Below, in pieces: positions 44,939 through 49,307 of a stretch of DNA of 64,000 nt. The stretch comes from Luteimonas mephitis DSM 12574 (GTDB lineage Bacteria; Pseudomonadota; Gammaproteobacteria; Xanthomonadales; Xanthomonadaceae). The stretch spans positions 670,566-734,565 of the forward strand of contig NZ_KE383816.1 of NCBI RefSeq assembly GCF_000422305.1, in the 5' to 3' direction. The notes beneath the pieces are model-generated. The model had not been told where the DNA came from and did not search any database. It saw nothing but the letters and a program-made list of their open reading frames with translations. A program made the translations under genes and the position numbers. Positions within the stretch are counted from its first letter, which is position 1, and every line of letters begins with the position of its first letter.

Positions 44939-45085
44939 ACGGCGCGCGGCGCAACCGACTGGTTCATGGATGGAGCACGGAAACGTGCGGCACAAGGATG
45001 TGCCACCCTCTGTTTCTACCGGGTTCGCACCACGGGTCCGTTGCATGGGCCCGGCGGCGCCACGCGGGCTGGTGCCGCGCTCACG

Positions 45086-45091
45086 TACAAT
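45086..45091 (+). promoter_or_regulatory. Possible -10 element of argS
   Basis: TACAAT lies 33 bp upstream of the argS GTG. No convincing -35 box is present at the expected spacing. The sequence just upstream (about 44983-45003) carries a partial copy of the CACAAGGATGTG repeat. Confidence 0.35.
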
Positions 45092-45123
45092 GCGGGGCCG
45101 TTGATCCGCGACACCCCGTCCCC

Positions 45124-46812
45124 GTGAAATCCCAGCTCCGCGCCCTGATTGCACAGGGCATCGATGCCCTCCGCGCCGCCGGAACCCTGCCCGCCGACCT
45201 CGCCGTGCCCGACTTCGTGGTCGAGCGCCCGAAGGACCGCAGCCACGGCGACTTCTCGACCAACGCCGCGATGCTGCTGGCCAGGCCGGCCCGCAGCAAT
45301 CCGCGCGCGCTGGCGCAGGCGCTGGTCGACGCGCTGCCGGCCAGCGGCGACATCGCAGCGGTCGAGATCGCCGGTCCGGGCTTCCTCAACTTCCGCCTCG
45401 CCGCCGACGCCTGGCAGCGCCAGCTGCGCGCGGTGCATGCGCAGGGCGCGACCTACGGGCGCAACGACAGCGGCGACGGCCGCACCGCGGGCGTCGAATA
45501 CGTCTCGGCCAACCCGACCGGCCCGCTGCACGTCGGCCACGGCCGCGCCGCGGTGATCGGCGACTGCATCGCGCGCGTGCTCGACGCCAACGGCTGGGCG
45601 GTGAAGCGCGAGTTCTACTACAACGACGCCGGCGTGCAGATCGAGAACCTCGCCCGCTCGGTGCAGGCGCGGGCGAAGGGCCTGACGCCCGACGACGCCG
45701 GCTGGCCGGAAGACGGCTACCGCGGCGACTACATCGCCGACGTCGCCCGCGCCTTCCTCGACCGCGCCAGCGTCGAGGTCGAGGGCCAGGTCGTGTCCGG
45801 CAACGGCGATGCCGACGACCTTGACGCGATCCGGCGCTTCGCCGTGGCCTGGCTGCGCAACGAGCAGAACGGCGACCTCGCCGCGTTCGGCGTGTCGTTC
45901 GACGTGTACTTCCTCGAGTCGTCGCTGTATGCGGACGGCAAGGTCGAGGAAACCGTGCGCGAGCTCGTTGCCCACGGCCACACCTACGAGGACGGCGGCG
46001 CGCTGTGGCTGCGCACCACCGATTTCGGCGACGACAAGGACCGCGTGATGCGCAAGTCCGACGGCACCTACACCTACTTCGTGCCGGACGTCGCCTATCA
46101 CCTGTCCAAGTGGCAGCGCGGCTACCAGCGCGCGATCACCGAACTTGGCGCCGACCACCACGGTTCGCTGGCGCGGGTGAAGGCCGGCCTGCAGGCGCTC
46201 GACGCGGGCATCCCGCACGGCTGGCCGGAATACGTGCTGCACCAGATGGTCACGGTGATGCGCGGCGGCGAGGAAGTGAAGCTCTCCAAGCGCGCCGGCA
46301 GCTACCTGACCCTGCGCGACCTGATCGACGAAGCCGGGCGCGACGCGACGCGCTGGTTCCTGCTGGCCCGCAAGCCGGATTCGCAGCTGGTGTTCGACAT
46401 CGACCTGGCGCGCTCGCAGTCGCTCGACAACCCGGTCTACTACGTGCAGCTGTCGCATGCGCGCATCTGCGGGCTGCTGCGGCAGGTGGAGGAGCGCGGG
46501 CTGGCGTTCGACCTCGACAACGGCCTGGCGCAGCCGCTCGATCCGGGTGACGCCGCGTGCCACGGCCTGCTCACCGACCTGGCGCGCTGGCCGGAAGTGG
46601 TGGCCGCCGCGGGCGAACAGCTCGAACCGCACCTGGTGACGACCTACCTGCTCGAACTGGCGCAGGCGTTCCAGACGTACTACAACGACCACCAGTTCCT
46701 GGTCGATGACGCCAGCGTGCGCGACGCGCGCCTGGCACTGGCCCTGGCGGTACGCCAGGTGCTGGCCAACGGACTGGACCTCGTCGGCGTACACGCACCG
46801 GAGAAAATGTGA
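45124..46812 (+). CDS. argS: Arginyl-tRNA synthetase
   Basis: This 562-residue class I synthetase charges tRNA-Arg. It has the N-terminal Add-1 domain ([13 protein letters not shown]), the HIGH-type signature in [14 protein letters not shown], and VKLSKRAG in place of KMSKS, then the all-alpha anticodon-binding domain ending VHAPEKM. The start is GTG at 45124, chosen because it gives [17 protein letters not shown], matching the N-terminus of Xanthomonas ArgS; the frame upstream has no similarity. Its TGA is directly adjacent to a large inverted-repeat element, and the next gene encodes a SPOR protein. Confidence 0.96.
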
Positions 46813-47078
46813 GAGCCTGTTCCGAGCCGTTATCCGGGCCGCGTTGCCCTGCCGTGGCCGCCATGCGGTCGCGCGCGGCGCAGTGCCTGACTGGCCGTCA
46901 GGTCAAGCCGCGGGCGACCGCATGGCGGCCACGGCAGGGCAACCCTTCGGGCTGGGGCCAAGTGCCCGCAGCGCTGTGTCATCGTTCGGTTGCGCATCGA
47001 CATGCGCGCCCTCTCTCTTCCTTGCGCTGCGGGCACTTGGCCCCAGCGCGACCCAGATAACGGCTCGGAACAGGCTCT
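46812..47078. repeat. 267-bp composite inverted-repeat element (three-way-junction fold)
   Basis: The outer arms (46812-46843 and 47047-47078) are 32-bp inverted repeats, perfect over the outer 23 bp and with two mismatches further in. Inside lie two independent hairpins. One has perfect 30-bp arms at 46843-46872 and 46914-46943, with smaller stems in its loop (46874-46879/46907-46912 and 46886-46891/46897-46902). The other has perfect 22-bp arms at 46952-46973 and 47025-47046, with a 6-bp stem in its loop (46992-46997/47002-47007). The element begins on the last base of the argS stop codon and ends on the base before the next ATG, so it fills the gap exactly. No coding frame in it is recognisable. 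Confidence 0.93.
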
Positions 47079-47819
47079 ATGGCAGCAAGACGCGGCAAGT
47101 CGCAGGCGCGACGCAACTCGGGCAACAGCGGCGGCCTGCCGGGCTGGGCCTGGCTGGTCCTCGGCATCGTGATCGCGCTGTTGGCGGTGCTGACGCTGCC
47201 GCGGCTGCTGAAGTCCGACGGCAACGACGGCTTCATCCTGCCGCGCGCGAACCCGGACGCGCAGCCGTCGTCGTCCAGCGACGACGATGCCGACCTGCCG
47301 GCGCCGGTCGCCGCCGCGCCGAAGCCCGGCGCGAAGGGCGCGGACGACCAGGAGCGGCAGTACGACTTCTACACCGTGCTGCCCGGCCAGGAAGTGGCGA
47401 TGTCCGACGCCGAGCTCGCCGCCAGCGCCCGCGCCGAGGCGGCGCGCAAGCAGCAGCTCGCGCAGCAACAGCAGGCGGCCGCCGCCGCGTCCGATGACGC
47501 GGCCATGCCGGCACCGATCGCGACGACGCCGGCAGCACCCGCGCCTTCGGCCCCGGCGGCGCCGGTGGCCACGAACACGGACACGCAGGCGCCCTACATC
47601 CTGCAGGCCGGCGCCTTCGGTGCATCCGGCGACGCCGAAGCGGTCAAGGCCCGGATCGCCCTGCTCGGCCTGAATGCCCGCGTCGAGTCGGCGTCGATCG
47701 ACGGCAAGACCATCTACCGCGTGCGCATGGGCCCCTACGGCACCGCTACCGAGCTGGCCGCGGCCAAGGGCAAGCTGGCCAACGGCGGCCTGCCGGCGAT
47801 GGCGATCAAGGTGAAGTAG
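47079..47819 (+). CDS. SPOR domain cell-division-type protein (FtsN-like)
   Basis: This 246-residue bitopic membrane protein has a basic N-terminus (MAARRGKSQARR), one membrane helix at about 22-42 (GWAWLVLGIVIALLAVL), a long Ala/Pro/Gln-rich periplasmic linker and a C-terminal SPOR domain (about 168-245, APYILQAGAFGASGDAEA, YRVRMGPYG). SPOR domains bind denuded peptidoglycan at the septum, so an FtsN-like division role is likely but inferred. Its ATG directly abuts the inverted-repeat element, and no strong ribosome binding site is visible in the 18 bp upstream. The argS-SPOR order is conserved in relatives. Confidence 0.85.
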   Translation: MAARRGKSQARRNSGNSGGLPGWAWLVLGIVIALLAVLTLPRLLKSDGNDGFILPRANPDAQPSSSSDDDADLPAPVAAAPKPGAKGADDQERQYDFYTVLPGQEVAMSDAELAASARAEAARKQQLAQQQQAAAAASDDAAMPAPIATTPAAPAPSAPAAPVATNTDTQAPYILQAGAFGASGDAEAVKARIALLGLNARVESASIDGKTIYRVRMGPYGTATELAAAKGKLANGGLPAMAIKVK

Positions 47820-47822
47820 TCC

Positions 47823-47860
47823 GGGATTCGGGATTCGGATTCGGGATTCGGGATTCGGGG
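47823..47860. repeat. GGGATTC heptamer array
   Basis: Four GGGATTC units plus a shortened GGATTC unit follow the SPOR gene stop by 3 bp. It belongs to the family at 1086, 16187 and 33487, here in a single orientation. The rest of the gap to 48075 shows no gene. Confidence 0.85.
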
Positions 47861-48075
47861 GCAAAGCCGCCTGCCGCGTTCGCGCAAGGCCTTTGCTTGC
47901 CGGGAATGCAGGCCGGGGCGCAGCCGCCCTGGCAGGAACGCGGGTCGCGATCAAGGATGACGTTGTCCAGCGCCCGAGGGCGCCTTCCGGGCGATCCGCG
48001 ACCGCCGTCAGGACCCGGTCGCGACCGCTGAGAAGCCGCTGCGGCATGATGCGTGCCCATAGGGAGAGCGCCGCC

Positions 48076-48486
48076 ATGCCAATTGAAGCCGCACTGATCA
48101 AGCCCGTCGTCGACGCCCTGATGGGGCTGTTCAGGCAGGGCGACAACCTGCGCCTGAAGCACAACGCCGAGGCCGCGCTGCGCGAGGCGATCCGCGAGCT
48201 GCTGCTCGCCAGCCCGGACGACAACAAGGCCGAGGCGCGCATCGCCATCGCCAAGGCCGCCGGCATCCTGTCCGAGGACGTGGTGCTGGCCGAGGACATG
48301 CTGAAGAAGCACCGCGCCACCAAGGCGCGCACCAGCGGCAAGGCGGCGACCGGGCGCAAGCGCAAGCCCGCGGCCGCGAAGACCGAGCAGTCCGCGCCTG
48401 CGAAGAAGGCCGCGAAGACCGCACCGAAGCCCGCTGCGAAGAAGGCCGCGAAGACCGCCGCGAAGAAGGCGCCCGGCAAGTCCTGA
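48076..48486 (+). CDS. Small protein with lysine/alanine-rich histone-like tail
   Basis: This 136-residue protein has an N-terminal helical region of about 85 residues (MPIEAALIKPVVDALMGLFRQ) of unknown family and a C-terminal tail of about 50 residues made of Lys, Ala, Pro and Thr (repeated AAKK and KTA units), like histone H1 tails and the Ku tail at 31719-32657. DNA or RNA binding by the tail is plausible but inferred. The start is supported by AGGGAGAG upstream. No operon partner is clear. Confidence 0.65.
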   Translation: MPIEAALIKPVVDALMGLFRQGDNLRLKHNAEAALREAIRELLLASPDDNKAEARIAIAKAAGILSEDVVLAEDMLKKHRATKARTSGKAATGRKRKPAAAKTEQSAPAKKAAKTAPKPAAKKAAKTAAKKAPGKS

Positions 48487-48554
48487 CCCCCGCGCGCCGA
48501 CACCCCGCGCGCGGCGCGGATGCCGCCGGCATGCAACGCGCCTAGAATTGCCGC

Positions 48555-49307
48555 ATGACCAAGACCCTCCTCGTCACCGGCGCCACCGCCGGCTTCGGCG
48601 CCGCCATCGTCGAACGTTTCGCGAGCGCCGGCTGGCGCATCGTCGCCACCGGCCGCCGTGCCGAGCGCCTGCAAGGGGTGGTCGAACGCTTCGGCGCCGA
48701 CGTCGTGCATCCGGCCGCGTTCGACATCCGCGACGCCGACGCGATGCAGGCCGCGCTCGACGCGATCCCCGCGCCGTTCCGCGACATCGACGTGCTGGTC
48801 AACAACGCCGGACTCGCGCTGGGCACCGCGCCGGCGCAGCGCGCGGACCTGGCGCAGTGGCGGCAGATGATCGACACCAACGTCACCGCGCTGGCGACGA
48901 TGACCCACGCCCTGCTGCCGACGCTGGTCGCGCGCCGCGGCGCGATCTTCAACATCAGCTCGATCGCCGGCTCGTACCCGTATCCGGGCGGCAACGTCTA
49001 CGGCGCGACCAAGGCCTTCGTCACCCAGTTCTCGCTCAACCTGCGCTCGGACCTGCACGGCACCGGCGTGCGCGTGACCTCGATCGAACCGGGCTTGGCC
49101 GAAACCGAGTTCACCCTAGTGCGCACCGGCGGCGACCAGTCGGCCTCCGACGCGCTGTATGCGGGCACGCAGCCGATCACCGCCGGCGACATCGCCGAAT
49201 CGGTGTGGTGGATCGCCAACCTGCCGCCGCACCTGAACATCAACCGCTTCGAGGTGATGCCGGTGAGCCAGTCGCTGGCGGGGCTGCAGATCCACCGCGG
49301 CGCGTAA
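48555..49307 (+). CDS. ydfG: Short-chain dehydrogenase (YdfG-like)
   Basis: This 250-residue NADP-dependent SDR closely follows E. coli YdfG, which oxidises L-allo-threonine/serine and reduces 3-hydroxypropionate precursors such as malonic semialdehyde. It has the cofactor motif TGATAGFGAA (8-17), the NNAG motif (83-86), the catalytic Ser in NISSIAGS (about 135-136), Tyr149 and Lys153 (YGATK), and the family C-terminus NINRFEVMPVSQSLAGLQIHR. The symbol is given by strong similarity along the whole length. Confidence 0.9.
   Translation: MTKTLLVTGATAGFGAAIVERFASAGWRIVATGRRAERLQGVVERFGADVVHPAAFDIRDADAMQAALDAIPAPFRDIDVLVNNAGLALGTAPAQRADLAQWRQMIDTNVTALATMTHALLPTLVARRGAIFNISSIAGSYPYPGGNVYGATKAFVTQFSLNLRSDLHGTGVRVTSIEPGLAETEFTLVRTGGDQSASDALYAGTQPITAGDIAESVWWIANLPPHLNINRFEVMPVSQSLAGLQIHRGA

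Follow-up and report, generated by a model that had tools for sequence, protein, structure and literature searches.

A folded palindrome between argS and a SPOR-domain gene is probably an IS5-type MITE with copies in two families of the Lysobacterales

MITEs are already known as a class in bacteria. Within the IS5 family, duplication of TNA is the habit of the IS1031 group and duplication of TA that of the IS427 group. The passages of PMC2516522 that concern the IS1031 group give the insertion site as three nucleotides. Among the elements in the relevant portions of one review (PMC2229807), the repeat unit of pneumococcus (RUP) is 107 bp long and highly conserved, its proposed mover is IS630-Spn1, and it is the only one there for which a partner IS is named. 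Compared by description in these portions, the element that we describe here resembles RUP in being short and apparently gene-less, with IS-like terminal repeats and a TA-containing target. In contrast to RUP, it is 267 nt long and has three arms, IS5-type ends and arms that change in pairs.

The window, a stretch of 64 kb from Luteimonas mephitis DSM 12574, contains argS (Pfam arginyl-tRNA synthetase domains) and, next to it, a gene with a Pfam SPOR domain. The original prediction that a palindrome fills the gap between them was borne out: three inverted repeats and a near-complete fold were found over 46812-47078, with the argS open reading frame (44998-46812) ending in TGA and the next ATG at 47079. 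The features are as follows.

44998-46812, plus strand: argS; the element is inserted at its TGA stop codon and supplies, with its own terminal A, the last letter of TG|A.
46812-46842, plus strand: left terminal inverted repeat (AGAGCCTGTTC..., a GAG-type end), which is the 5' strand of the outer stem P1.
46843-46943, plus strand: hairpin A; its outer arms vary among copies, and its inner U-G and G-A positions, present in most copies, are Watson-Crick in the window copy.
46885-46903, plus strand: apical stem-loop of hairpin A (GCCTGAC TGGCC GTCAGGT).
46944-46950, plus strand: small junction hairpin within CCC TTC GGG; 46944-46945 pair with 46949-46950.
46951-47047, minus strand: hairpin B; its outer arms vary, and it folds better on the minus strand family-wide, with nearly equal strands in the window copy.
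46978-47024, plus strand: conserved interior of hairpin B (GTCATC..TC, a small stem, TC...CTTCCTTG), by which the family was found.
47048-47078, plus strand: right terminal inverted repeat (...GGAACAGGCTCT), which is the 3' strand of P1.
47079-47819, plus strand: SPOR-domain gene, its ATG directly after the element.

An inverted-repeat search delimited the outer arms at 46812-46846 and 47044-47078 (35 nt, 91%), the arms of hairpin A at 46843-46879 and 46907-46943 (37 nt, 97%) and those of hairpin B at 46947-46974 and 47024-47051 (28 nt, 96%). The minimum free energy of the 267 nt is -230.1 kcal/mol, compared with -129.2 +/- 5.1 for 200 dinucleotide shuffles, none of which was as low (z -20). 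The predicted cloverleaf-like fold holds; the small hairpin (CCC TTC GGG) sits between the two large ones and makes the junction three- or four-way. Both modelled pairs of this small hairpin are unchanged in all 16 aligned copies. The loop motif of the element occurs once in the window, and open reading frames cross the window copy on both strands (46706-47497, plus; 46830-49058, minus). In Rfam, the region 46500-47500 gave 18 matches up to E 5, nearly all to miRNA families; none was above gathering, which places the element in no known Rfam family. Hairpin A (46843-46943) matches eukaryotic miRNA families at low E-values, again below gathering, and these matches are probably a by-product of long hairpins. 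The right end (CAGGCTCT; window 47050-47081) adjoins the SPOR ATG. In most of the relatives read, this gene overlaps argS or lies very close to it; here it might now use the AGG of the terminal repeat as its ribosome-binding site.

The palindrome is not a unique intergenic structure, a reading ruled out by further copies. BLAST with the 267 bp as query detected two more places in the same genome, one a second copy (L003) and the other a weaker one (L004), and matches in 20 of 61 genomes, this one included, the two richest having 12 and 10 places. Once oriented by the interior of hairpin B, many copies have equal end-to-end length. The loop pattern occurs in 73 of 398 sampled genomes of the order, all within two of its 12 families (that of the window and f12), with a maximum of 44 matches in one genome (G256) and three in the window's own, and the reversed pattern, used as a control, occurs in 0 of the 398. 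A GTDB scan gave at least 119 stretches; among the 80 listed are Luteimonas, Lysobacter, Xanthomonas and Stenotrophomonas, and also Pseudoxanthomonas, Dyella, Rhodanobacter, Fulvimonas and others. The loop pattern can match by chance, as at one place in G224 that has no inner stem of the motif. Three loci (L073, L074 and L112, all from Clostridia-type MAGs) match the pattern without a covariance-model match. The same is true of all three loop-pattern matches in the IMG/VR viral sequences, and a distant blastn search of PLSDB plasmids at E 1e-5 found no relatives.

A covariance model run over 100 of the 119 loci gave 185 matches, the best 150 of which reduce to 92 non-overlapping copies. With 56 further loci scanned, the final set holds 148 copies, exact duplicates removed and kinship of copies ignored. 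Because most copies were retrieved through letters inside hairpin B, the conservation of these letters partly reflects the choice of sample; the arms, hairpin A and the ends are independent of it. The anatomy of the family is P1 (the terminal repeats), hairpin A, a small CCC-NNN-GGG hairpin and hairpin B, and 111 of the 148 copies are 260-270 nt long. Short copies (160-208 nt) have a simple hairpin A or none, with the usual ends. Rhodanobacter copies in L071, L066, L121 and L099 are 283-304 nt long, the first two with a longer loop in place of the small hairpin. Palindromes of other kinds were also seen: two Dyella loci (L120 5578-5715; L133 6217-6354) hold 138-nt palindromes with weak model matches. 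Near-perfect hairpins of 66-81 nt occur at L086 1209-1276, L140 7836-7901, L119 3103-3183 and L088 4002-4078; two of these have TAGGAGCG...CGCTCCTA ends, and they look like separate repeat families.

Comparison of the argS-SPOR junction among relatives reveals empty sites. The end of argS was matched in 51 of 52 genomes of the genus, and in the loci read from 29 relatives the gap to the SPOR gene is -1 to 20 bp in 25 and 133-160 bp in the other four. Three (L049, L054 and L064) read ATGTGATGG, which is the window flanks minus 267 bp; all of the empty-site evidence is from this one locus.

Target duplications come from the wider family. TNA is duplicated at 25 of 78 GAG-type copies (5000 shuffled pairings: mean 11.0, maximum 21), with no such duplication at the other 53; at 3 of the 17 copies with mixed ends (1.2 expected); and at no GGG-type copy. 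GGG-type copies lie within CT|AG in 15 of 49 cases, where duplication and target preference are inseparable, and T|A flanks, found at 24 of the 49, are no more frequent than under shuffled pairing (22.2). The window copy has TGA on its left and TAT on its right, so its duplication is damaged at best. Clean insertion without duplication, which this copy had suggested, was dropped given the TNA duplications of many copies. An element end lies on a stop codon in 12 of 40 GAG-type copies, compared with 159 of 2176 intergenic TNA sites (p 1.9e-5). Orientation relative to genes is unbiased in 69 copies flanked by two called genes (++ 23, -- 20, +- 13, -+ 13); for this count and that of stop codons, genes were called by a simple GC-frame script. 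Three of the copies examined lie within a called ORF.

The ends of the element point to the IS5 family. The consensus ends are AGAGCCTGTTCAcGATCTCC and AGGGCCTGTTAACGCTAT, and by a hand count 16-19 of 18-20 positions agree with the ends of IS5-family elements; the end of the window copy follows the consensus over its first 11 bases only. In the same genus, an IS5-family element at L190 and L195 has the ends AGRGCCTGTTAACACTAT and lies in CTAG, and another, at L196, has AGAGCCTGTTCACGATCTTC at one end and is flanked by TAA and TCA, thus without a duplication. In the genome with 44 matches, the IS5-family ends at L233 are AGAGCCTGTTCAAAGTCTC, with TGA flanking the outer unit on both sides, and G402 carries two IS5-family insertions with the ends GGGCGTGTTAACACTA and TA on both sides. 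The IS proteins of L190 and L196 match NF033580 and PF13340, and that of L190 also PF01609. At L233, the IS5-family element appears to sit inside a shortened version of the same element (1363-2599). Some copies, at L014, L015, L018, L100 and L152, end in AGGGCGTG, and the same variant is found on an IS5-family element of G402; it is as if the ends of the element followed the type of transposase.

The interior of the element has no match (R1, E 0.001) in four IS loci (L188, L190, L196 and L233), and thus none of these shows the parent-like interior that would mark an IS5-family internal-deletion derivative. An end-pair search for an autonomous element in the copy loci collected early found none. 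Transposase genes do not track the copies well. The window's own genome, a draft of 18 contigs, has no PF13340 and no PF01609 match; PF13340 is above cut-off in 3 of the 23 genomes that have copies by loop pattern and in 4 of the 16 that lack them, NF033580 in 3 of 20 with copies, and the single-contig G366, with 17 pattern matches, has no NF033580 match above cut-off. Presence of a transposase as a predictor of copy number is unsupported by these counts, and from this poor tracking we suspect that many copies may be relics, or may have been moved by other transposases.

Based on these comparisons, we conclude with a probability of about 0.8 that the palindrome in the window is a copy of a MITE, a non-autonomous transposable element, of the Lysobacteraceae and Rhodanobacteraceae, and that DDE transposases of the IS5 family with the same terminal repeats move this element in trans. 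A MITE-like element was one of three options in the original prediction, and it is the one favored by dispersed copies, empty sites (at one locus), target duplications (imperfect at the window copy) and terminal repeats in common with IS5-family elements. The mobile-element part of this conclusion is well supported; the role of the fold we infer. An NF033580-type transposase would cut at the AGAGCC or AGGGCC ends, and insertion would duplicate TNA (or TA), rebuilding stop codons such as the TGA of argS, so that the insertion would be tolerated. Selection would maintain the fold during proliferation of the element, after which one-sided mutations would erode individual copies. Our best guess is that the fold could act as a shield for the element and its neighbors during transcription of either strand or while either is single-stranded, since on each strand the hairpin encountered first is the one that folds best there.

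The arms differ in sequence among copies, and their pairing is kept. Across 16 aligned copies, 93.4% of cells are paired, and at 70 of 107 pairs both partners have changed; the 303 double-changed cells compare with a mean of 88.3 in shuffles (none of 500 as high) and with at most 57 when the structure is slid. These counts come from a plain MAFFT alignment of related copies, with the structure taken from the window copy. Perfect arms had been read as a sign of recent origin. For the family this fails, given paired changes across two bacterial families; for the window copy it has some point, because the usual wobble and G-A positions of hairpin A are Watson-Crick there.

Selection is one way to keep arms paired, and slow arm-to-arm correction may be another. 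Template-switch (quasi-palindrome) correction in place of selection is a possible explanation, though in our judgment an unlikely one. Double changes accumulate at higher divergence, at first mostly as transitions and unclustered; at 10-15% divergence they are clustered (60 adjacent, 30.6 expected), as template switching could produce, but at lower divergence they are not (0 compared with 0.3 expected, and 3 with 3.8). Below 3% arm divergence there are 19 one-sided changes and 1 two-sided change (10 overlapping, non-independent copy pairs), which argues against such correction. Few two-sided changes at low divergence and their later build-up fit selection in a proliferating lineage and decay of single copies. 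The Watson-Crick pairs of the window copy, where most copies have hairpin A wobbles, are consistent with template switching, as is the lack of a clear strand bias among outer-arm mismatches (P1: 39 G-T, 32 A-C; outer A: 24, 13; outer B: 13, 10; one odd column each of P1, 6 and 27, and of B, 2 and 1, set apart; 70 full copies counted). Interior mismatches, however, persist across two families.

The interiors of the hairpins are biased in opposite directions. In 70 copies of 255-305 nt, drawn from the 92, the interior of hairpin A has 278 G-T, 17 A-C, 75 purine-purine and 13 pyrimidine-pyrimidine mismatches, and that of hairpin B the reverse, with 6 G-T, 55 A-C, 1 purine-purine and 99 pyrimidine-pyrimidine. 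The tips have 45 G-T and 4 A-C (A), and 31 G-T, 34 A-C and 64 pyrimidine-pyrimidine (B). When each hairpin is folded separately, the plus strand gives the more stable hairpin A in 101 of 103 copies and the minus strand the more stable hairpin B in 99, with opposite preferences of the two in 97 (the 103 are the 111 copies less eight without the small hairpin, which serves as a landmark). The window copy is atypical, and its strands differ little (-98.4 and -94.8; -71.9 and -72.1) because the usual wobbles of hairpin A are Watson-Crick there.

These preferences invite the speculation, which we hold as doubtful, that the element needs, in order to spread, two hairpins that are read on opposite strands, either as ssDNA or as transcripts from either side, and that shape rather than sequence is selected. 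The arms would then drift by compensatory change, and only the tips would be bound by a borrowed IS5 transposase. A related and distinctly doubtful proposal is that a folded single strand or cruciform is itself read in mobilization or replication, each of the two hairpins on a different strand, with the letters of the arms free because it is shape that is read. The opposite strand preferences, the near-constant length and the unbiased outer arms are what it would lead one to see, but the ends and target duplications are in keeping with an ordinary DDE transposase, and the copies of 160-208 nt keep their usual ends with hairpin A simple or absent. The element could also be a protein-binding DNA structure, the third option of the original prediction.

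The remaining option, an attenuating or processed RNA, is without support so far. A structured RNA, transcribed with the upstream gene and controlling processing, attenuation or stability of the mRNA, with mobility secondary, seems improbable to us. The paired evolution of the arms and the excess of G-T over A-C within hairpin A suit an RNA, and ERIC RNA, which affects transcript stability according to the portions of PMC2229807 concerned, is a precedent. The reversed interior of hairpin B, the lack of a clear wobble excess in the outer arms and the sub-threshold Rfam matches do not suit it, and the orientation counts and opposite strand preferences disfavor one structured RNA as the unit.

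A REP/BIME-type element moved by a REP-associated tyrosine transposase is very improbable. REP palindromes, including those of Stenotrophomonas in the relevant passages of PMC3733652, are likewise dispersed, extragenic and known in the same order, and intergenic palindromes with two inverted units recall them. They are, however, units of 20-40 bp with GTAG or CGTC tags, whereas the unit here is 267 nt long, has IS5-type ends and shows duplications of TNA or TA. That the palindrome arose by chance or is an assembly artefact can be set aside almost with certainty, since copies occur in many assemblies, including single-contig G366 and G339, and nothing was found in its favor.

With near-fixed length, arms that vary and yet stay paired, and opposite strand preferences, the family is a natural experiment on palindrome upkeep, and the question that it poses, selection on the fold or arm-to-arm copying, is testable thanks to the number of copies, the IS elements with matching ends and the covariance model. 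Stop-codon targeting suggests a benign mode of insertion, in which the target is often rebuilt by the insertion itself.

In searches of the PMC library we recognized no description of this family. Several described repeats share some of its traits. As described in the relevant portions of PMC2229807, ERIC/IRU and Correia/NEMIS elements are also small repeats with stable stem-loops, terminal repeats and duplications, but their stem-loop forms by pairing of the 5' and 3' ends, with no side arms. The CIR repeats of Caulobacter and Brucella, compared by the same descriptions, similarly have two long hairpin arms and a linker, but no terminal inverted repeats appear for them in the table of that review, whereas the arms here are closed by an outer stem whose sequence matches IS5-type ends. 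Lastly, IS5-family elements with NF033580-type transposases have the same kind of terminal repeats and the same TNA or TA duplications; the element here differs in that it apparently has no transposase gene and that its interior is matched in none of the four IS loci. Judged by sequence, these copies appear to form a family of IS5-type MITEs, spread over two families of the Lysobacterales and unusual in their conserved fold.
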